DNA of 64,000 nucleotides, from NCBI RefSeq assembly GCF_003702045.1, contig NZ_RBTP01000002.1, positions 30,264-94,263 on the forward strand, read 5' to 3'. The position numbers and the translations under genes were made by a program. Of this stretch, positions 1,365-13,408 are shown in pieces (position 1 is the first letter of the stretch; every line of letters starts with the position of its first letter). This stretch comes from Pseudomonas viridiflava. Its GTDB lineage: Bacteria > Pseudomonadota > Gammaproteobacteria > Pseudomonadales > Pseudomonadaceae. The notes below the pieces were generated by a model. That model worked only from the letters and a program-made list of their open reading frames with translations, did no database searches and was not told the origin of the DNA.

Positions 1365-1641
1365 TCGCGGTGTGTAGAAGCCGATTGGACTGGGTGGCGC
1401 CCCTAGACCGCTGAGCCGTCGGAGCACTAGATTTAATGGTTCAGCAGCTTCAAAACTACCACCTGCGATATGGCAAGGACTTTGCCACCCATTTGCATAA
1501 TCACTGATCATCCAGTTGCCCTCGATTTGGCCAGCATACTCCTGAGCGGCGATTGCAATCTCAATTTGACGCATGTACTTGGCCTGCGCCATCATCCAGA
1601 ATCAGCAACTACAACGTTCACACAGAAGTTACATATAACCC
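1365..1641. other. Non-coding interval before the channel gene
   Basis: No supportable gene. The long frame on the opposite strand across 918-1595 is the antisense of the frameshifted gene and has no family character. The sequence becomes distinctly AT-richer from about 1500 onward, into the next gene. Confidence 0.4.
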
Positions 1642-2751
1642 ATGACCAAAACCTTCAATCCAGAACAATACAAACTCATAACCGAATGCGCACAAAAAGG
1701 AGACTTCTCAGAATGGAATGACTACGCCTCGAAAACTAAAGACATTATCGATTTGCGAGAGTCAAACCTAGAGAGCATAAAAATCATTGGCGCCAATTTC
1801 AAAAATGCCGATGGTAAGGGTGCGAATTTTTGCGACGCAAAATTAATGAATGCAATGCTAGACGGTGTGGATATGTCTGATTGCGCTTTCTTGAATGCCG
1901 ACCTGACCGGCATTGAGGCATTCGGATCTATATTTCACGAATCTATATTCGTCAGGGCACAAGTAGCCAACGCCCACTTTAAGCTTTGCAATTTTGACGA
2001 AGCCAACTTCCAACAAAGCAATTTAACTGCAGTGAAATTTTCCAACTCAAACTTTCAAGATTGTAGCTTTTACGCGACAGACCTTTCAGGTGCCAAATTC
2101 CAGGGCGGTGGCAGAAATCCTTTAGTAGAGGGCGAGTTGAGATTTAATCTATGTGGAACAATATTTAGGGAGGCAAAATTTACAAGCGAAACCTATTTCC
2201 ACCTTGCGAAAGTTTCAAGAAAAACAGATTTTAGAACGGTAAGCTTTGAAAGCGCCTGTTATTCTGCGGGGCTTCGCCAAACGCTTCAGTACTGTAATCG
2301 CAGGCATAACTGGACTGCATGGTATGAAAAACATAGTAGGGCAAAAAGCATCCCAGCCAAGTTATTTTGGATGACATCGGACTATGGGAGATCTCCCAAA
2401 CAGGTAGCACTATCGTTTCTGATTATATGCTTATTCTACTCACTCCTGTACTGGCTAATACCTGGATCAACATCTGGAGTTGAGAAAAAAGATTTAAATA
2501 TAATTCAGAGTTTATATTTCTCTATCGTCACGATGACAACTCTTGGATACGGAGACATTTCAGCAAACAAGTTAAGCTGGCTATCTCAGGCACTCGTGGC
2601 AACCCATGTGCTATTTGGTTATGTCATACTAGGTGCGCTACTCACCGTACTGTCAAATTTATTCATCTCTGACGGCCCTCCAGAGGGACTGATAGAACAT
2701 CCAGCTAAAAGCGATTTTCGTATTCGTTTCCAAAGCCCTCGCAGTGAATGA
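1642..2751 (+). CDS. Pentapeptide-repeat protein fused to a two-TM potassium channel pore
   Basis: A 369-residue protein. Residues about 45-190 are pentapeptide repeats of the A(D/N)LXX type (ANFKNADGKGANF, LNADLTG, CNFDEANFQQSNL, NFQDCSFYATDLSGAKF), which fold as a right-handed beta-helix. A linker follows. From residue 253 comes an ion-channel module (Ion_trans_2 type): a membrane helix at about 255-273, a pore loop with the potassium filter TMTTLGYGD at about 297-305, and a second helix at about 315-341. The combination suggests a membrane channel gated or docked through the repeat domain. The gene is AT-rich compared with its neighbours, indicating transfer, and sits in a defence-rich region. 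A role as an ion-leak effector is inference only. Confidence 0.85.
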   Translation: MTKTFNPEQYKLITECAQKGDFSEWNDYASKTKDIIDLRESNLESIKIIGANFKNADGKGANFCDAKLMNAMLDGVDMSDCAFLNADLTGIEAFGSIFHESIFVRAQVANAHFKLCNFDEANFQQSNLTAVKFSNSNFQDCSFYATDLSGAKFQGGGRNPLVEGELRFNLCGTIFREAKFTSETYFHLAKVSRKTDFRTVSFESACYSAGLRQTLQYCNRRHNWTAWYEKHSRAKSIPAKLFWMTSDYGRSPKQVALSFLIICLFYSLLYWLIPGSTSGVEKKDLNIIQSLYFSIVTMTTLGYGDISANKLSWLSQALVATHVLFGYVILGALLTVLSNLFISDGPPEGLIEHPAKSDFRIRFQSPRSE

Positions 2752-2939: not shown

Positions 2940-3680
2940 TCAATCGGCCGCGTGTATGAGACCGATCAGCTGTTTAGCGTTGAATTCGAGAGTCATTGCT
3001 ACCTCCCCCACTGGCACGTCCCATGCCTCAGCCAGCAGCTCAGCCGTCTGGCCTGAGCTCCAAGGCATGACCGTGGCACCATTGACCTGGGCGAACGGCC
3101 CGTCGCTTTCAGGAACCACGCGATCACGAGGCAGTTTCTTGGCCAGGGCCTTACCAGATGCCGAGTTAAACGCTGCCGGCCCAATGCTGAACCAGCACCC
3201 CATATCCGCGGCAGACTTAAGCTCGGCAGCTGTACCCGTAAACCAATGAAGAACAGCTGTACCAAAACCTGGGTGCTCATCAAGAACAGCCAACACGTCT
3301 TTTGCAGCTTGGCGCGAGTGAATGCTCAGCACGCGCCCACCAACGTTGGCGCATTGCGCGACCACGGCAGAAAACACGTTGCGCTGAGCTTCGTAGCTGT
3401 GCTGAAAGCGTCTGGAACCATCCAACCCCACTTCTCCGACGGCAGCTGCGTCCTTGATCTGCTCGATCAAAGTATCGAGTTCACCATAGCGCTCATGCAC
3501 GATTTCCGGATGCAGTCCCGGGGTGATGAGCACATTTGCATGACCGCCAAGCACCTTACTGGTGGCGGAGAATGCACGGGGGCTGGTGGTAACCAGCCAG
3601 GTGAACATGTTCCTCTCCACCGCTTGCGCGAAGACCTCCCGTGCATTGGGATAGAGGTCGAGATGGCAGTGAAAATCCAT
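2940..3680 (-). CDS. qatD: QatD, TatD-family metal-dependent DNase of the Qat defence system
   Basis: A 246-residue TatD-like hydrolase. The metal-binding pattern of the family is present: MDFHCHLD at the N-terminus (HxH), VGEVGLDGS (Glu), LSIHSRQA (His), VLHWFTGT (His) and ESDGPF (Asp). I chose the ATG at 3680, which overlaps the qatC stop as TGATG, over the TTG one codon earlier. It is the last gene of the operon qatA-B-C-D. In the described Qat system all four genes are associated with protection against phage, with TatD-like QatD as the presumed nuclease. The order and families match that system here. Confidence 0.93.
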   Translation of the reverse strand: MDFHCHLDLYPNAREVFAQAVERNMFTWLVTTSPRAFSATSKVLGGHANVLITPGLHPEIVHERYGELDTLIEQIKDAAAVGEVGLDGSRRFQHSYEAQRNVFSAVVAQCANVGGRVLSIHSRQAAKDVLAVLDEHPGFGTAVLHWFTGTAAELKSAADMGCWFSIGPAAFNSASGKALAKKLPRDRVVPESDGPFAQVNGATVMPWSSGQTAELLAEAWDVPVGEVAMTLEFNAKQLIGLIHAAD

Positions 3681-4945
3681 CAAAGCAATCCGTCTCCGGT
3701 CAAAAGGGCCTCCAGCTCATGGATGCCATTGGTGAGCACAGATCGATACTGAGGTCGCTCAGGAATAGGAGCAAACGCTAGTGATGCTCCCAAGAACCTG
3801 TCGATACCCCTATTTCGCGCCGTAAGTACCGCCAATGCTACAGCCATTGGGTCATCTGGCCCGCTGGATTTGTCGCTGCCTACCAACCTTGGGAAGACGT
3901 AGCGGGTTGCATCGGCCCCCGATGTCCAGGCACCAAAAGCAGCCCTGCGAATCATACAAGGCACGCAGCGACCGCAGTGAGTTCGATTGTAAGTACGGAA
4001 TCGCCCGCAGCTTGTCGTATCGGAGGCCAGCGCTTTTAGGCGTGGCTGATCCAGGCACTCATTCATCATCTGGCCTTTTGTCTTGAACCGGTAGGGTAAT
4101 TCCAGCTGCACCGAGACGCCAATACCGTCGAGAACCTGCTGTAGTTTGTTGATGAACAGAGGATGAGTCGTGCGAGTACTCAGGCTCGATACTCGCCCAG
4201 GAACAAGTGGGGGGTTCACACAGATAAATCCGTTCTCTGGAATGTAGATTGTCGGGCGTGCAGCATCAAGCCGAGACGCCGCTAACACTGCAAAGGCGTA
4301 AAACGCCAACGATCGACCACGTGTCGATGGTTCGCGGGGGCCTTTGAAGCTGATCCCGTGGCTCCACTGATAGTGAGCATCGGCACCACCAAGCAGGGTT
4401 GCATAGTGGCGTTGGCGCTCAGAATCCTCATGAGCCAGCTGAGAAACAAACAGAGGCTGCCGACCCTGAGCCACGAGATCCAGACCGCCGATTAGGCTGT
4501 CGAGGCCACCAGACAACAAGGAAACACAATCTTGATCTTTGGCGGTGAAACGGCCCTGAGGAGGTGGCAGGCCTGCATCCGTGAACATGAGAGTCCAATA
4601 GTCCCCCGTCAGAACCTTCAGCAGTTGCTCAAGCTCTTCCTTCCACGGTTCCCATCGCAACGGTTCATGAAGCCCAACACTCAGCTCAATAGTCCGAGTC
4701 CAGCCATCAGCACTTGTACTGCGCATCGCACAAAGGTCGGTCGCGCAGACGGCCAAACAGAGCTGAACGAAGTCCCAAGCCGCGGGACTCGGGCGGAACC
4801 CTTTGCGCTTCAAGGAGCCGTGCCACCCCTTAGCGATGGTTCCGACACCTTCACGTCTGGCGCCTTTGAAATAGGTGAAGGCCCGCTCCCCTTCGGCAAG
4901 TTGAGCGGGGAGACGGGCAACGCTGGTACAAATAACCTTGATCAT
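3680..4945 (-). CDS. qatC: QatC, QueC-like ATP-pyrophosphatase of the Qat defence system
   Basis: A 421-residue protein with a PP-loop SGGLDS motif (LLSGGLDSLIG, about residue 145) as in QueC and other ATP pyrophosphatases. A cysteine cluster near the C-terminus (CGRF, then HCGRCVPC) resembles the QueC zinc site. QueC makes the deazapurine precursor preQ0, so a nucleotide or protein-tail modification is a plausible activity for QatC, but its substrate is not shown by the sequence. The ATG at 4945 overlaps the qatB stop as ATGA, which is why the longer frame reaching 5056 was rejected. The roughly 140-residue N-terminal extension is much longer than in housekeeping QueC. Confidence 0.93.
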   Translation of the reverse strand: MIKVICTSVARLPAQLAEGERAFTYFKGARREGVGTIAKGWHGSLKRKGFRPSPAAWDFVQLCLAVCATDLCAMRSTSADGWTRTIELSVGLHEPLRWEPWKEELEQLLKVLTGDYWTLMFTDAGLPPPQGRFTAKDQDCVSLLSGGLDSLIGGLDLVAQGRQPLFVSQLAHEDSERQRHYATLLGGADAHYQWSHGISFKGPREPSTRGRSLAFYAFAVLAASRLDAARPTIYIPENGFICVNPPLVPGRVSSLSTRTTHPLFINKLQQVLDGIGVSVQLELPYRFKTKGQMMNECLDQPRLKALASDTTSCGRFRTYNRTHCGRCVPCMIRRAAFGAWTSGADATRYVFPRLVGSDKSSGPDDPMAVALAVLTARNRGIDRFLGASLAFAPIPERPQYRSVLTNGIHELEALLTGDGLL

Positions 4946-5793
4946 TCTGCAAATACCTCCAGCGCGGTCTGCAGCACGCCATGCGCAAGGGCCTGGGGAT
5001 CGATTCTCTGCGCCGCCAGACCTTCCATGATTCGCTGCACCTCTGCGTGAACCCATTGCTTGATGTCGTTACGGAACGCCTGGATTTCGACGGGTGAATA
5101 CTTGAGCTTTTCGTAGGTCTGGCCCAACTGCAGATCCATCCGATTGCAAACTTCGTTGGCGATCGTGAAACCGATGACCGAGGTGATCTGCTGATCATCA
5201 AGCTGAAAAATGTCGACGTTGGGATCCTGCTCGTACAGCTGTGCTAGCGCATCAGCGGCGGCATTTCTCAAAGACTCATCGTCGACACTGCCGGTGCCCG
5301 GCATGACTTCCTTGATGAGCTCCAGTGCGAGATCGCTTGCTGAAAGGTTCTGGCCGCGAACCCTCTGAATCCAGTCGACTACTTGAGGATCTGTGCCGTC
5401 CCTGACAGCTTCGAGAAACGATCCTAATCGCCCGGCACCTTGAGCAACCCCACGCATGGTATTGCTCGCGCGCCCGGCTCCCCCCATACCCTTTTTGATC
5501 ATGCTGCTGGCGGCGCCGCGAAGCGCGTCACGACCACCTCCAGACAGGTATTTACCCATCTTTGAACGGGCCGGCATAAACCTGCGATCTGGCGCAATGT
5601 CTCGGTCTTGGGCAGGCTCTAAACCGGCCTCACCATTTTCAGGCGCATCCTCGGGAACACCCTCATCATCTGGAGCACCATCTGGCGCTCCTCCATCTGG
5701 CGCCGGGCCACCGGCAGCATCGCCCTGATCCAACCATTCAGGATCAAACGGAGAACCCGCCTTACCGCCACCACTTGATGTAGAGGTACCCAT
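4942..5793 (-). CDS. qatB: QatB, Qat system protein of unknown biochemical role
   Basis: 283 residues, encoded between the ATPase and QueC-like genes with one-base overlap to qatA (TAATG) and four-base overlap to qatC (ATGA). The N-terminal 70 residues are low-complexity, rich in Gly, Pro, Asp and Glu (SSGGGKAGSPF, then repeated DGGAPDGAPDD). A helical region follows from about residue 85. No enzymatic motif is visible. Position, size and architecture match QatB. The disordered head could be a target for modification by QatC, by analogy with deazaguanine-type systems; that is speculation. Confidence 0.88.
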   Translation of the reverse strand: MGTSTSSGGGKAGSPFDPEWLDQGDAAGGPAPDGGAPDGAPDDEGVPEDAPENGEAGLEPAQDRDIAPDRRFMPARSKMGKYLSGGGRDALRGAASSMIKKGMGGAGRASNTMRGVAQGAGRLGSFLEAVRDGTDPQVVDWIQRVRGQNLSASDLALELIKEVMPGTGSVDDESLRNAAADALAQLYEQDPNVDIFQLDDQQITSVIGFTIANEVCNRMDLQLGQTYEKLKYSPVEIQAFRNDIKQWVHAEVQRIMEGLAAQRIDPQALAHGVLQTALEVFAE

Positions 5794-7703
5794 TAGACCG
5801 CACTCCTTAGTGCTGCAGTGATTGCCCTTTTGGCACGGTCATTCACAGCAGCATCGTCCGCCCAGGATCTCAGGACTTCCGTCGCCCAAGACTGGCCCGC
5901 AAGCACAGGCATAATTCCAGGCCCCAACGCATCCAAGGGAGCAAGACTCAAAAGCCCTGCCGCACGCCTTCCGAGTGCTGGATAAACCTTGCAAGGCTCA
6001 ATCAAGATGATCATCTCGACGGTAGCTTTCCATGTTCGCGATGAAGCTGTGCCCTGCCAAGCCTTCACCATAGCCAGCTCTGCCTGGTCGCCGTCAACGG
6101 CGTTAATAGCATTCGTCAGCGCTTCATTGGCGCTGGTAGCTACTTTCAATACATCACGAAGAACACGAGCGTCGGGAGTCATGTTGTCGTCACCAAAGTC
6201 GCGCGTCGCGGTGTCTCTACTCAGGTGAAGCAAGGGTCGCAAGTCCATCGTACCGAGCGCCGGCGCCAACTGGAGCCACTCTTTAACAAACGGCTCCTCG
6301 AAAGGTTTGGACAATGTTCCGCCTTCACGGGCCAACGTCTCGGCCTGCAGCAACTGCGCTACCTGCCCGTCATTCTCAGAACTGACCATGGACGACAACG
6401 TGTCAGCCAGCTCCTCTTTGTAGCGCTCCAACAAATGCCACTTCGCCAATGCCGGAATGTCCAAAGTGATTCCTTGAGGTAACGCTAAGGACTCTCTCAG
6501 ATACACGGTGTTCAGAAATCGCTTCATGAGCCGCGGATTCGCGCTGATACTGGAGGACTTGAACATCAGCGTTGCCAATCCTTGAGCCAGTTCCATCAGC
6601 GCCTGAAGACGGGTATCGGCTCCCACGAGCTCGTTGAGGAACGTGGACGTAATCGTCTCGCCTAGCCAGCTTCGGGCCAGGCGTTGCGGTATATCCAGCT
6701 TCGCCTGATCAAACTTGTCTTGTGGAAATGTCCCGGCCCTCGCTTCGCGCTCAAGCAGTAGCAGCACCAAGTAGGCCTTGGCTTCGTTCACGCCGATGCG
6801 CGGCACATGCAGAGGCACCTGAATCAACTTGTCAAAGTAGTTGGTGGCGATGTCACTCGTGATGCCGGTACCTTCGAAATGCTTCTTCACTGCACCGTGG
6901 ATGAATTCGTTGTCAGCAGCGATCACGAAAGCCGTGCGCTTGAGGAACAAAAGCAGCCTAATGGATTCGAGAGTCGAAATTGCCGTCTCCGGCAAACACC
7001 GATCCAAGTCGTCGACAAACACCACCAAGGTGATCCCAAGCTCCTCCAAAAGCTTTTCGAGTGCGGTTCTGAAGGCATGGATTTCGTTAGGCAGCGATAT
7101 CGGCTTCGCCGCGCTCAGAAGACCATCGGCCTTGAGCTCCAGTGACTCCCCTTCTTTCTTGTCTTCCCCTTCAGCCGTATCGCCATCTGAGGTGAATGCA
7201 TCCCAGAGACCTGAAACCTTCCCAATGGCCTTGCCAATCGCACCGACGGGTACACCCGTGGTAATCGTGATCGCAGCCTCACCCCCGAACTGCGCCAACC
7301 GTAGCAGGTTGATGCGCTTCAAGAGGTCGAGGGCTTTCTTCAGCAGCGTTTCATCACCCTTGGCCAGCTTCAGCACTTCATCGCCGACGATCTGCAGCAA
7401 CGCACTGCGAGCGCTTTCGAAGTCCTGATAGAGCCATGGATTGAAGGTGATAACGACGTACCGGTGGTCGGTAGGCTGGGGCCGGGCACCTGTGGCGGAA
7501 GGCGGCGATAAGGAAGCTGAAGCGACCGGGGTTTCGAGGCGGGCGGCGATCATTTTGACCAGAGAGGACTTGCCGGCGCCCCAACCACCTGACACACCTA
7601 TCGAAATCGGCTCGCCACGACTCTGCCGCAGAAGACTAGCGCAGGCATCAGCCACCACGCCAAAGTTTAGGTAGTCGACCGTTGTCTCGTTGTCATGCCA
7701 CAT
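5793..7703 (-). CDS. qatA: QatA, KAP-family P-loop ATPase of the Qat defence system
   Basis: A 636-residue KAP-type NTPase and the first gene of the qat operon. The Walker A is at about residue 40 (SGGWGAGKSSLVK) and the Walker B at about 225 (LVVFVDDLDRCLPE), followed by a sensor-like IAADNEF segment. A short hydrophobic stretch between the Walker motifs (ITITTGVPVGAIGKAIG) may be the membrane-associated insertion typical of KAP ATPases. The start at ATG 7703 (MWHDNETT) is the only good one, although the Shine-Dalgarno is weak. QatA is the probable sensor or energy module of the system. Confidence 0.92.
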   Translation of the reverse strand: MWHDNETTVDYLNFGVVADACASLLRQSRGEPISIGVSGGWGAGKSSLVKMIAARLETPVASASLSPPSATGARPQPTDHRYVVITFNPWLYQDFESARSALLQIVGDEVLKLAKGDETLLKKALDLLKRINLLRLAQFGGEAAITITTGVPVGAIGKAIGKVSGLWDAFTSDGDTAEGEDKKEGESLELKADGLLSAAKPISLPNEIHAFRTALEKLLEELGITLVVFVDDLDRCLPETAISTLESIRLLLFLKRTAFVIAADNEFIHGAVKKHFEGTGITSDIATNYFDKLIQVPLHVPRIGVNEAKAYLVLLLLEREARAGTFPQDKFDQAKLDIPQRLARSWLGETITSTFLNELVGADTRLQALMELAQGLATLMFKSSSISANPRLMKRFLNTVYLRESLALPQGITLDIPALAKWHLLERYKEELADTLSSMVSSENDGQVAQLLQAETLAREGGTLSKPFEEPFVKEWLQLAPALGTMDLRPLLHLSRDTATRDFGDDNMTPDARVLRDVLKVATSANEALTNAINAVDGDQAELAMVKAWQGTASSRTWKATVEMIILIEPCKVYPALGRRAAGLLSLAPLDALGPGIMPVLAGQSWATEVLRSWADDAAVNDRAKRAITAALRSAV

Positions 7704-8183: not shown

Positions 8184-11066
8184 ATGGTTAAAGAACTCAC
8201 TCCTCCTTGGTGGGCCCGATGGCTCCCGTCAGCTGCTCGCAAACTTGTTATCTCTGGCACGGGTGTCGAAATCCACACCCGCGAAGGTATCCAGAGCTTC
8301 GACTGGACGGCAATCAGTCAGCATCCTAAAAGATCGCCGATCTGGTTCCTGCACATGGCATACATCAATACGCCACGTGGCTCCTGGCGCCTTTATTTTC
8401 GCACCCAACCACAACAAGATGCCGCGTGGAACGAGCTCGTCCGGGCTTGGTATATTCCCCGCATCATCGAGACCCAGCGCCGACTTAAGTCGTTCGATGA
8501 TGGCCTGCAGGATTCTCGATACCTGCGAACATCCGTGTGGGAGCCCTACCGTCAGCAAGTATTGTCCTGGGCTACCACCAGACCTCCTGTCCCACCTGAA
8601 GGCATTCTCAGGCAGGATCATCGAAACCTGCTGATTAGGATGTTGGAACTTACCAAGAACCCCGATGGCTGGTTGAAAGAATCGCGCGACTCCTACGTCG
8701 CCCAAGCCCTGATTGACTATCACGATCTGTTTGAAACCGTAGAAAGCGACCCGTTGACGCCTGAACAACGCAAAGCATGTGTGATTGACGAAGATAATAA
8801 TCTGATCCTAGCCGGTGCCGGCACAGGCAAGACCAGCACGGTCATTGGTCGAGTCGCATTTCTGGTGGCCAGTGAACAAGCCAAACCAGAAGAGATCTTG
8901 CTTCTTGCATACGGCCAAAAAGCGGCCCTGGAGCTACGGGAACGTCTGGAAAGCAAACTCGGGATCAAAGGGGTAACAGCTGAAACCTTCCATCGGCTGG
9001 GTCGGTGCATCGTCAAGGCAGCTGACAAAAAGGCAATCGCGATAAGTGACATGGCAGGGGATGAAGATCTCACAGCGAATTTCGTCGACCAGGTCTTCCA
9101 AGCCAATCAGCAAGAGCCAGAATACAGAGCGTTGCTGCTGAACTATTTTGAACGGTGGCTGCACCCTGCCCGCAACCCGTTTGATTTCAAAACGCTTGGC
9201 GACTACTACCGATTCCTTGAGGACAACCAAATTCGCACCCTCAAAGGCGAAGCAGTCAAAGGGTTCGGCGAATGCGACATCGCAAACTTCCTCTTCAAGA
9301 ACGGGATCGAGTACCGGTACGAGGCCACCTACTCCACCCCATTACAATCACCCGATCGTGCTGCTTATCGCCCTGACTTCTTCCTGCCGGAGCTTGGGAT
9401 CTACGTCGAACACTTCGGTATCGATCGCCAAGGCAATACAGCTCCGTACATTGACCGCCAGAAATACCAGGCCGACATGGCGTGGAAACGCAATGTACAC
9501 GCTCAGGGTGGGACGACTCTCATCGAGACCTTCCACTACGAGAAACAGGAAGGTGCTCTACTTAAGTCGCTAGAACAACGGCTAGTCAAAGCAGGCGTGG
9601 TGCTCAACCCACTACCTCCCGAAGCCGTGCTTGAGACCCTACGAGAGTTTGGAGCGATCTCGGATTTTTCAAAGATCTTGGCGCAGATGCTCGGACTGGT
9701 GCGAGCTGCGAATTTGTCTGCCCAGCAGCAGGCGGATTTGATAGCCCGATCCGCTAATCCCGGCCAGGTCAGCGCTGCCCTGACACTCCTGGCTCCTATC
9801 AAGAGCGCGTACGTGGAAGCGCTTCGAGGCAAAGGAGAAATGGACTTCGATGACATGATCAACATGGCCAACGAATATGTCCTGAACGACCGTTTCGAGA
9901 GCCCTTGGAAATTCATCGTCGTCGACGAATTCCAAGACATTGCAAAGTCCCGCGCCGAACTCGTTCAAGCCTTGCGCAAGAGCCGGGGAGATGCCTCACT
10001 GTTCTGCGTCGGCGATGACTGGCAGTCCATATTCAGATTCACTGGAAGCGATATCAGCTTCACCGCCGACTTCGAGAAAATCTTCGGCGCAACCCAGTTC
10101 AGCAAGCTCAACAAGACCTTCCGCTTCAACAGCAAAATCGGTGAAGTGGCGAGTCGGTTCATCATGCAGAACAGCCGCCAGATCACCAAGGACATCCAGT
10201 CCCATACCATCGTAGCCTCACCTACGGTGTCGATAGTGAGAGCCTCCCTGGCTGGCGATGCTGCCATCGACCAAGTCCTGGATCGAACTGCGGCGCGCAT
10301 CAGCGCAATTGCGAAGCCAGGCTCTACCGTCTACTTGCTGGCGAGGTTCAAATTCCATCTACCTGACCTTGACGCCATCCGTGCGCGTTACTCGAACTTG
10401 GTCTTCAAACAGGATTCAATCCACAGCTCCAAAGGCAAGGAAGCGGACTACGTTATCATTCTGGGCCTAGGCAAAGGGAAGTACGGGCTGCCGTCCGAGA
10501 TTGTTACGCATCCGCTAATCGAGGCCCTGCAGCCTAAAGCTGAAGCCTTCCCTCACGCCGAAGAGAGGCGTTTGTTCTACGTCGCTCTGACCCGCGCCAA
10601 GCACAGGGTCTACTTAATCTGCGACATGATGCGATCCTCACCCTTCGTACGTGAGCTGATAGACGGCAAATATCCGCTAGATCTGGAAGAGCTGGCAGCG
10701 AGCCCTGAACAGGTTAACGCGATCGCAACCAACTGCCCCGCGTGCAAAGAGGGGTTCCTGGTTAACCGGGTTAACGGGACTACTGGGCAACCCTTCATTG
10801 GCTGTTCGAACTTTCTACCGTGCAGGCACATCGAAGACGGGTGCGACGAGTGTAATGCACCGATGACTGTCTCAGGACGCTACCGGGTCTGCGTCTCACC
10901 TAAATGCAATGGCTGGCTCGCCGTGTGCCCTGCCAGCGGGGGTCATATGGTATTTCGAAAAAAATTCAACACCTGGGGCTGCTCACACTACCGTGTTGGG
11001 GGCCTCAGCTCATGCGGGCATATGGAAAAACACATTGCTCCCCCACCACCAAAACCAAGTAATTAA
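8184..11066 (+). CDS. Helicase IV (HelD)-like UvrD/Rep helicase with embedded nuclease-like segment and C-terminal zinc ribbons
   Basis: A 960-residue superfamily 1 helicase resembling E. coli helicase IV. It has a HelD-type N-terminal domain (residues 1-180), Walker A LAGAGTGKTS (about 210), motif II VVDEFQD (about 580), motif III GDDWQSIFRF (about 610), motif V HSSKGKEADYVI (about 745) and motif VI EERRLFYVALTRAKHR (about 793). Residues about 370-450 form an insertion (YRPDFFLPELGIYVEHFG, then a conserved K and W region) with the D-(x)n-E pattern of PD-(D/E)XK nucleases. The tail (about 850-935) has four-cysteine zinc-ribbon units like those of topoisomerase I. It likely unwinds and cuts DNA. 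It lies in the accessory region and is distinct from a chromosomal helD. Confidence 0.88.
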   Translation: MVKELTPPWWARWLPSAARKLVISGTGVEIHTREGIQSFDWTAISQHPKRSPIWFLHMAYINTPRGSWRLYFRTQPQQDAAWNELVRAWYIPRIIETQRRLKSFDDGLQDSRYLRTSVWEPYRQQVLSWATTRPPVPPEGILRQDHRNLLIRMLELTKNPDGWLKESRDSYVAQALIDYHDLFETVESDPLTPEQRKACVIDEDNNLILAGAGTGKTSTVIGRVAFLVASEQAKPEEILLLAYGQKAALELRERLESKLGIKGVTAETFHRLGRCIVKAADKKAIAISDMAGDEDLTANFVDQVFQANQQEPEYRALLLNYFERWLHPARNPFDFKTLGDYYRFLEDNQIRTLKGEAVKGFGECDIANFLFKNGIEYRYEATYSTPLQSPDRAAYRPDFFLPELGIYVEHFGIDRQGNTAPYIDRQKYQADMAWKRNVHAQGGTTLIETFHYEKQEGALLKSLEQRLVKAGVVLNPLPPEAVLETLREFGAISDFSKILAQMLGLVRAANLSAQQQADLIARSANPGQVSAALTLLAPIKSAYVEALRGKGEMDFDDMINMANEYVLNDRFESPWKFIVVDEFQDIAKSRAELVQALRKSRGDASLFCVGDDWQSIFRFTGSDISFTADFEKIFGATQFSKLNKTFRFNSKIGEVASRFIMQNSRQITKDIQSHTIVASPTVSIVRASLAGDAAIDQVLDRTAARISAIAKPGSTVYLLARFKFHLPDLDAIRARYSNLVFKQDSIHSSKGKEADYVIILGLGKGKYGLPSEIVTHPLIEALQPKAEAFPHAEERRLFYVALTRAKHRVYLICDMMRSSPFVRELIDGKYPLDLEELAASPEQVNAIATNCPACKEGFLVNRVNGTTGQPFIGCSNFLPCRHIEDGCDECNAPMTVSGRYRVCVSPKCNGWLAVCPASGGHMVFRKKFNTWGCSHYRVGGLSSCGHMEKHIAPPPPKPSN

Positions 11067-11304: not shown

Positions 11305-12036
11305 TCAATCAGCGCGTTTCACAGCCCATTGCATGCCGTTCCAATGAAGGTCATCGTTGTAGATGTGAGCGAGTAACTCGAAATGGCTTAGCTGCAGTCC
11401 TGGTGTTATCACATTGGGATCTTGCTCGGGTACTAGCATGCCAAAATAGAACATGGGCCAGTTATTGATCATGTGGCCTTGTGGAGGGAGTTTTCTATCG
11501 AACTCCTCCTTCCAGCGCTTCGTCATAATTGACTTGCCCAAGGTTCGCCCAACCTCATGGCGTACCAGCCAATAGCATTCGACCCCCGACCTGGCATAGC
11601 GTTCTTGCCGGCGGACGAAGTCCCTAAGGTGCTGATATGAACGCTGGAGTTCGATCGCAACCTTGCGCTCACCCATCTCCACGTACACGTCGGCCCGCCA
11701 TCGATCCTTCCCTGCCCCACCTGATACCTCACTGCGGGGGTTGAGCCCGAATAGCTTGAGTGCTCCGAACACCAAGTCTTTGGCTTCTATGTGCCAGACC
11801 GTCTCCGGCGCCGTAGCGCATTCGTCCGAGTAATGCGCAAAAAACTGAACGCCGTTCATGCTGGTCTTCAGCACCGCGCGCGAAGCGCAGCAGGGCATCT
11901 TGAATGCATGAGGGTCTTGGAGTGACTGGGCCTTGAGGGCGTCCCAATGCTCACGAGTGTATCGGCCAGCATAGACGGGTTGTTCGTCCCTAGTGAAGGC
12001 TTCAGGCATTACGCTCATTGGGTCACCGAAAGTCAT
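11305..12036 (-). CDS. CoiA-like protein, predicted PD-(D/E)XK nuclease
   Basis: 243 residues. The N-terminal part has a possible cysteine pair (MPCCASR) and HFAH-like (FFAHYSDEC) and HIEAKDLV segments. A core then reads RADVYVEMGERKVAIELQRS, with Asp, Glu and Gln spaced as in the CoiA branch of restriction-endonuclease-like folds. CoiA is a competence protein in Gram-positive bacteria, but CoiA-like proteins in proteobacterial accessory regions are generally uncharacterised, and no competence gene is nearby. A DNA-acting, possibly defensive role is inferred. The start could also be one of the internal Met codons at residue 7 or 10. Confidence 0.72.
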   Translation of the reverse strand: MTFGDPMSVMPEAFTRDEQPVYAGRYTREHWDALKAQSLQDPHAFKMPCCASRAVLKTSMNGVQFFAHYSDECATAPETVWHIEAKDLVFGALKLFGLNPRSEVSGGAGKDRWRADVYVEMGERKVAIELQRSYQHLRDFVRRQERYARSGVECYWLVRHEVGRTLGKSIMTKRWKEEFDRKLPPQGHMINNWPMFYFGMLVPEQDPNVITPGLQLSHFELLAHIYNDDLHWNGMQWAVKRAD

Positions 12037-12595: not shown

Positions 12596-13408
12596 CTACG
12601 GCGAAAGCTTAGGCGTGCGCTGCCATTGAGGGTTAATCACTAACAGCTCAGAGTCGAGGACTGTCCGGGATATCAGCGACAGGGTCACAAGCGAAGGCCG
12701 GGCTCGGATCACCTTGCTGAGTTCCTCGGTATCAATCTCTGACGGTCGAGAACCGCTGTCTTGACTACGACGTGACTTGGCTACCTTCACAGCCTCGACA
12801 ATCTGATCGCCCAACTTGATTACCCCACCGGCTTCCAGCGATTGCGGCTTAGGCTTGTTCAACTGGCCTTGAAGGAATCGGCTCAGGGTTTGGAACTTTG
12901 CCGGAACGGGATCTTCAGAGCAGCGATGAACCAAGCCTGCTCTGTTGAATACCATATAGTGATCCTTCTCATCCGGAAGCGGCCCAATGTCGGAGGGGAG
13001 AAAGGCGGCAGAGTTATCCAGGACTCCGTCATGCAGGAAATAGCTGTTCAGCTCTGCAGACTCATCGAACATAGGGGCTGTGTAGACCACGAGGTTTCCT
13101 TTGCTTTCTAGATCAAGAAGCAGGTTGTGCTGATCCGAGCGCTGGAGCGAATGCAGATGCCACCGGTAGTAAGGCCCACCCATCAGGTCGTATTCTTTGC
13201 AATTGCTTCGCACCATGCGATGGCTCAGCTTGAACTGCAAGAAAACCGGGCTGCCCCCAACGATCTTGACGTCATACCCTCCGCCTGCCTGACCTTCAGC
13301 ATACAGCGTGGGAAACTGGGGGGCAGCCGCGATAGACGTCCCCAGCAACTTCACCACTTCGTTTGTCACCGCGTAGCCGTACGAGAACTCAGAAATACTG
13401 GGCGTCAT
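12596..13408 (-). CDS. Hypothetical protein, possible restriction-endonuclease-like fold
   Basis: 270 residues starting at ATG 13408 behind an AAGGAT site. I do not recognise the family. An N-terminal segment (GGGYDVKIVGGSPVFLQFKLS) has Asp, then a hydrophobic strand with Q-x-K, which is the spacing of a PD-(D/E)XK nuclease core. This is suggestive only. The remainder is mixed, with a Lys/Arg/Ser-rich linker at about 210-225. It is a single gene without tight coupling to neighbours, inside the accessory region. It could be a phage-defence or phage-derived protein. Confidence 0.6.
   Translation of the reverse strand: MTPSISEFSYGYAVTNEVVKLLGTSIAAAPQFPTLYAEGQAGGGYDVKIVGGSPVFLQFKLSHRMVRSNCKEYDLMGGPYYRWHLHSLQRSDQHNLLLDLESKGNLVVYTAPMFDESAELNSYFLHDGVLDNSAAFLPSDIGPLPDEKDHYMVFNRAGLVHRCSEDPVPAKFQTLSRFLQGQLNKPKPQSLEAGGVIKLGDQIVEAVKVAKSRRSQDSGSRPSEIDTEELSKVIRARPSLVTLSLISRTVLDSELLVINPQWQRTPKLSP

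Follow-up and report, generated by a model that had tools for sequence, protein, structure and literature searches.

Tan et al. reportedly described in 2025 an anti-phage system named Hailong, with a pore effector, HalA, whose repeat domain they are said to call the crown. Other pentapeptide-repeat proteins, such as HetL, MfpA, QnrB, and AlbG, are soluble. We analyzed the gene at positions 1642-2751 (forward strand) of a 64,000-nucleotide stretch of Pseudomonas viridiflava contig NZ_RBTP01000002.1 (positions 30,264 to 94,263), here called the window. In its product, the channel protein, such a beta-helix instead makes up the N-terminal half of what is predicted to be a membrane channel. The original prediction for this DNA knew of no named system built in this way. 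HalA of Hailong is such a case: a single chain carries the pentapeptide repeats, then a linker, and finally a two-helix pore. Excerpts of two papers that cite the system state that poly-dA made by HalB blocks the HalA channel and that phage exonuclease activity releases it (PMC13275509, PMC12657230). Excerpts of three more citing papers also treat Hailong (PMC12265719, PMC12657218, PMC12483538). Because HalA is the nearest protein of known function, the comparison supports an abortive-infection pore. The gene would encode a HalA relative that acts on its own as an abortive-infection effector, with a predicted crown that holds the pore shut until phage infection. We give this reading about an even chance.

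The open reading frame (ORF) starts with ATG and encodes 369 amino acids. Its assignment as a pentapeptide-repeat potassium (K+) channel draws on the ORF, Pfam, homologues, and an AlphaFold2 model. The predicted fusion of a pentapeptide-repeat domain to a two-helix K+ pore with an intact GYGD filter is borne out. The Pfam Pentapeptide model (PF00805) gives 63.1 bits against a cut-off of 20.2, and structure comparison also matches the beta-helix fold. Likewise, Ion_trans_2 (PF07885) gives 39.0 bits against 22.5 over residues 260-341. The K+ filter, T300-L-G-Y-G-D305, is encoded at 2539-2556. K+ channels of the Ion_trans_2 family share the first transmembrane helix (TM1), the pore helix, the T-x-G-Y-G-D filter, and the second transmembrane helix (TM2). 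However, the channel protein carries the beta-helix as an N-terminal fusion.

The AlphaFold2 input consisted of 68 aligned sequences, picked from the best 120 of 365 matches plus the window protein. The model is confident, with a mean predicted local distance difference test (pLDDT) of 89.7 and a predicted template modelling score (pTM) of 0.82. It places N-terminal helices at residues 7-31, the beta-helix up to about 195, linker helices at 211-245, TM1 at 252-272, the pore helix at 287-299, and TM2 at 313-342. On the forward strand, model and alignment delimit an N-terminal helical cap (residues 1-31; 1642-1734) with conserved Y10, C16, W25, and N26. The crown-like beta-helix domain follows, by Pfam and the model (residues 32-200; 1735-2241), with repeats at about 36-155 and a base at 156-200. 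The conserved linker (residues 201-250; 2242-2391) aligns with HalA and carries R220, W224, W227, and a YGxS motif before TM1, invariant in the 68 rows. TM1 lies at 2395-2457 (hydropathy peak from residue 255), and model and alignment place the pore helix with the selectivity filter at 2500-2559. TM2 lies at 2578-2667 (hydropathy peak from residue 324).

Profile comparison makes the channel protein a distant relative of HalA over the linker, TM1, and pore. Our HalA alignment holds 32 of the 40 proteins found. Against it, the channel family reached hhalign probabilities of 96.9 one way and 97.4 the other, with a match that extends from the linker through TM1 and the pore to TM2. Against a single HalA the value was 90.9 over 25 columns, and the more distant channel relatives gave 94.7 over 64 columns against HalA. 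As a control, eight ordinary K+ channels, a small profile of 8 sequences, gave 0.2 against the HalA alignment. The same eight reached 97.1 against the pore of the channel family, and their alignment to it covers the pore region only. The linker alone found no PDB relative, HalA included. In structure comparison, Foldseek matched the channel model to the HalA structure 9nyi over 335 columns, and VIA-align aligned 244 residues of the model to it across both domains. The [YW]GxS turn before TM1 is present in 38 of the 40 HalA search matches and common to the channel family. Both families also have an R three residues after the S of the turn, where the window protein carries Q, and share an aromatic position 21 residues after the G.

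The filters differ. The channel protein has the canonical TLGYGD, whereas HalA has GYTK in 32 of 32 aligned rows and GYTN in 9nyi. Ion_trans_2 is found in 0 of the 40 HalA matches (in a precomputed list), and the HalA of genome G172 also stays below it. Judged by sequence, the channel protein is not HalA and not Hailong. We do not file it as HalA because it misses the cut-off of the NCBIfam HalA model (NF051894; 35.2 bits against 250, in the repeat region only), has a different filter, and comes with no HalB match. That model touches 42 of the 68 members of the channel family. The channel protein also falls far short of the cut-offs set for the Qnr, MfpA, and HetL models. Against the PADLOC library of 2023, which may lack Hailong, the channel protein matched 0 families at an expectation value (E) <= 0.01.

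Searches for HalB at E <= 0.001 came back empty for the own genome (99.99% complete) and for all nine other carrier genomes. Three of these nine hold only distant relatives, one has a truncated copy, and two are less than 90% complete. With the HalB of G172 as query, 13 carrier stretches gave no match with E <0.1. The positive control for the HalB model was one of 398 genus genomes above its cut-off. This was G172, among the 6 of 398 with matches at E <= 1e-6. Its halA and halB genes touch, and its HalA scores 368.3 bits and matches 9nyi with E 1.7e-52. In 229 genomes of the class, a search for the HalA family turned up three weak matches, none above the cut-off. Nucleotidyltransferases in G022, G080, G083, G217, and G331 match HalB below its cut-off. 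The G172 pair (L071 6780-8623) adjoins core genes of the secD/secF-yajC-tgt-queA type, named by eye, and AT-rich genes.

The gate of the channel protein probably works like that of HalA, and its trigger must differ. One alternative is a Hailong-like effector gated by a nucleotide or DNA signal from an unlinked enzyme. The poly-dA control of HalA, as far as the excerpts cited above give it, and the homology of linker and pore to HalA fit such gating. However, HalB was matched neither in the own genome nor in the nine carriers and the 13 stretches, a result that concerns HalB-like enzymes only. We consider this alternative improbable.

Selection on the gene was examined through its conservation. 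The TLG[YF]GD filter is retained in 68 of 68 rows of the chosen alignment. Among the best 120 of the 365 matches, 109 present T[LVIM]G[YF]GD, and some of the other 11 are fragments. The rate of non-synonymous substitution (dN) is well below the synonymous rate (dS) in all six pairs among four Pseudomonas copies. The dN/dS values are about 0.11-0.16, with dS >1 (saturated) in five of the six pairs. So, the channel composition is more than chance, given the filter in every row and the low dN. The same results bear on the idea of a selfish or decaying island passenger with no present role. The copy in genome G173 (L034), truncated near residue 150 at the same locus, and the splitting of the neighboring ORF at 718-1364 would agree with a passenger. 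Nevertheless, purifying selection in all six pairs speaks against it, and so do the kept filter and the invariant linker residues. We regard a passenger as very unlikely.

In relatives of at least 40% identity, the more conserved parts are the beta-helix base, the linker, the pore helix with the filter, and TM2. Greater divergence is seen in the cap, in residues 32-155, and in TM1, turret, and tail. Below 40% identity, the conservation of the beta-helix base is lost. This pattern fits a changing sensor on a constant gate, and does not prove it.

The gene is present as a single copy in its own genome. Of the 397 other genomes of the genus, 6 gave a match at E <= 1e-20, and in five of these it runs the full length. 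The sixth, G173, matches over residues 1-152 only. At the same locus, its channel (L034 8116-9069) breaks off after about residue 150 and continues as unrelated sequence. Of a further 56 near relatives, 25 gave matches at E <= 0.001. All of these are partial, and the longest, in G041, spans residues 82-320 with 26% identity. A family-level draw gave 2 of 397 other genomes at E <= 1e-40, neither additional to those already found. The order-level sample was one genome only. At the class level, 3 of 368 other genomes match at E <= 1e-15, with 28-36% identity. Among the matches listed, relatives of at least 44% identity come from Pseudomonas, Burkholderia, Aeromonas, Vibrio, Serratia, Pectobacterium, and Citrobacter, and a Burkholderia copy (72%) is closer than one Pseudomonas copy (48%). 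A record from Aeromonas caviae had no annotated features in the stretch concerned.

The original prediction called the gene AT-rich, which holds: its GC content is 0.42 against 0.57 for the window. Just 4 of the 2097 equally long stretches in a sliding scan are as low, and the five lowest listed overlap the gene. In all seven loci compared, the GC of the channel gene lies below its surroundings. The analysis supports an accessory gene that has moved horizontally. The DNA of the window resembles L002, L030, and L031 from 83-85 nucleotides before the ATG to about 50 before the stop. Among themselves, these three loci match from about 84-161 nucleotides before the ATG to 24-75 past the stop. Upstream of the gene, DNA similarity and a consensus scan define a conserved block (1557-1641, forward strand) with a promoter-like pair, TTGACG-18-CATCAT, at 1566-1595. 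TTGACG is present in five of five aligned loci and CATCAT in four of five. The block may well act as a promoter. Because the DNA match spans the gene and this shared block, the gene apparently travels alone, bringing its own promoter along. HalA differs in this respect: the channel gene spreads alone with its promoter-like block, and no HalB was found. L002, L030, L034, and partly L031 share a stretch near GCGAACGATCAGTG, about 120 nucleotides before the ATG, that is missing in the window. It is possibly regulatory or a boundary.

A contig of a Mu-like phage (L041) carries a relative of 52% identity within an AT-rich cluster; Mu Gp27 scores 152 bits on this contig, and a transposase stays below its cut-off. 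The plasmid search found no near-identical DNA, and matches in phage records were confined to residues 15-208 of the channel protein. No channel relatives turned up in viral contigs scanned with P0034, P0032, and P0049, and a BFVD search with the channel protein gave mostly repeat proteins. Two results of a DNA pattern scan were rejected. L044 is, by eye, a phage tail-type gene matched by chance, and L045 is the L041 contig over again. Among the best-ranked matches in the open-licence literature, no paper deals with the channel family.

We compared the neighborhoods of seven same-genus loci (the window, L002, L030, L031, L032 in G166, L033, and L034 in G173) and the phage contig. A named defence system stands near the channel in two of the seven, or three if an HNH gene is counted. 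In G173, TrlF and a 223-amino-acid ORF are arranged as in the window, with a Dsr1-like gene that is partial at the edge of the stretch. In G166, the gene ahead of the channel is of the HNH type, similar to CBASS endonucleases (65 bits), and adjoins an integrase; a TrbL gene lies some kilobases off. The association of the channel with defence genes is suggestive and not proven. The original prediction proposed to score how often homologues lie near defence genes; this is so at two of the seven loci, or three with the HNH gene, and in four none was recognized, with not every neighbor scanned. The abortive-infection effector that it proposed gains support from the homology to HalA. It had also named core-genome homologues and loss of the filter as signs against itself. 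The near relatives mostly show neither, with a filter in 68 of 68 rows and presence in 6 of 397 genomes. Distant relatives do have housekeeping-type neighbors.

Several results weigh against a defence effector related to HalA. The alignment to 9nyi has a high root-mean-square deviation, 11.6. On the channel protein, the HetL model outscores the HalA model, and on this score HalA would count as no more than one repeat protein among others. The crown and the HalA beta-helix are alike in sequence only as repeats. Four of the seven loci (L002, L030, L031, L033) present no defence system among the one to three genes scanned per locus. By eye, L002 and L031 have ordinary neighbors, glyoxalase-like and, in L002, TetR-like. 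We compared all against all the 154 neighbor ORFs of the eight loci and both pieces of the split ORF, and no recurring partner or operon appeared. Finally, among the distant relatives (27-36% identity), the one in G639 adjoins genes of the fliE, fliF, fliG, and fliJ type. The one in G682 adjoins flagellin and FliD genes, and that in G761 adjoins EAL and response-regulator signalling genes.

Part of this evidence favors the main rival, an accessory physiological K+ channel. Its beta-helix would sense an internal cue, osmotic or a flagellar or regulatory protein, and set the K+ flux, and the defence neighbors would hitch-hike. The flagellar (G639, G682) and signalling (G761) neighbors agree with it, as do the four loci with no recognized defence system and the strictly kept canonical filter. 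Similar proteins with both domains, found by tblastn on plasmids of Acaryochloris and haloarchaea with no recognized defence context, point the same way. However, the gene is rare in the genus and low in GC at all seven loci, and one relative is carried by a Mu-like phage. The profile link to an anti-phage effector, HalA, is specific. Moreover, no same-genus locus lies inside a flagellar cluster (by eye). We hold the physiological channel to be plausible but doubtful.

Close sharing between neighborhoods was seen only between the window island and G173. There, the split ORF is 92-94% identical and three weaker pairs reach 34-49%; TrlF, common to both, lay outside the stretch compared. The remaining matches are pairs of 25-33% of common types (LysR, short-chain dehydrogenase/reductase (SDR), and sigma/FecR-like, by eye). 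The original prediction offered the frameshifted gene at 718-1364 as a possible conserved partner, a role it loses, since only G173 among the six other same-genus loci has it. Three other candidates were rejected. For the glyoxalase-like upstream genes of L002 and L031, the mutual match is no better than E 0.25. The L030 neighbor matches PycC with 16.5 bits, too weak to use, and the HEPN-like motif of the L033 neighbor is only a reading by eye.

The mechanism that we infer for an abortive-infection effector takes its parts from HalA, as excerpts of the citing papers give it, and from the anatomy of K+ channels. As in known K+ channels, four subunits would assemble into a K+-selective pore. The crown made by the beta-helices would sit on the cytoplasmic side and keep the pore shut, and the conserved linker with its YGxS turn would transmit the movement of the crown to the pore. 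The quickly changing surface of the crown may read a host or phage ligand directly, so that no nucleotidyltransferase would be needed. On infection, the opening of the pore would drain K+ and the membrane potential, and growth would stop before phage release. The defence role of the channel is likewise a deduction.

More tentatively, the channels with a canonical filter may be free-standing relatives of HalA, perhaps its ancestral form, whose crown senses infection directly. Hailong would then have arisen by loss of GYGD and control by a DNA-making enzyme. We see this as possible rather than likely. If true, these channels would give an evolutionary source for the HalA of Hailong. It would also mean that a crown-gated K+ channel can work without a nucleotide messenger, as a single-gene immune channel that is easy to test. 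What the pentapeptide-repeat crown senses would become directly testable.

The surroundings of the gene in the window are better described as a defence island than as the probable integrated element of the original prediction. No integrase was seen among the ORFs of the 94-kb contig read by eye or scanned, and attachment (att) sites were not searched. Upstream on the forward strand, positions 2-505 encode the C-terminal part of an 884-amino-acid TrlF/Ppl-like protein (NCBIfam TrlF, 214.8 bits against a whole-protein cut-off of 350). The whole protein, in L028, scores 132.6 bits with PADLOC Ppl. It is followed at 718-1364 by the ORF split in two frames (718-1059 and 945-1364). Its intact 223-amino-acid version in G173 (L034 9359-10030) lies between TrlF and the channel and has no Pfam or PADLOC match.

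On the opposite strand, the Qat operon (2940-7703) directly adjoins the channel gene, as originally noted. It comprises QatD (2940-3683), QatC (3680-5056), QatB (4942-5793), and QatA (5793-7703). QatD and QatC score above their NCBIfam cut-offs; QatA and QatB are recognized by PADLOC but fall below them. Upstream in the same island, a Lamassu-like pair consists of LmuA (130 bits) and LmuB (362 bits), at G000:C19:22791-26268 (L028 8492-11969).

Other observations concern single loci. In the phage contig (L041 6800-10800), the channel is followed by a 146-amino-acid ORF with hydrophobic stretches and a 340-amino-acid ORF, both without Pfam or PADLOC match. The distant channels next to flagellar genes lie at L050 7760-8689 and L051 7721-9163. 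In the window island, a 270-amino-acid ORF at 12596-13408 has no family match. The helicase-IV-like protein at 8184-11066 (960 amino acids), divergent from the Qat operon, weakly matches a topoisomerase-type zinc ribbon, and a CoiA-type nuclease-like ORF lies at 11305-12036.
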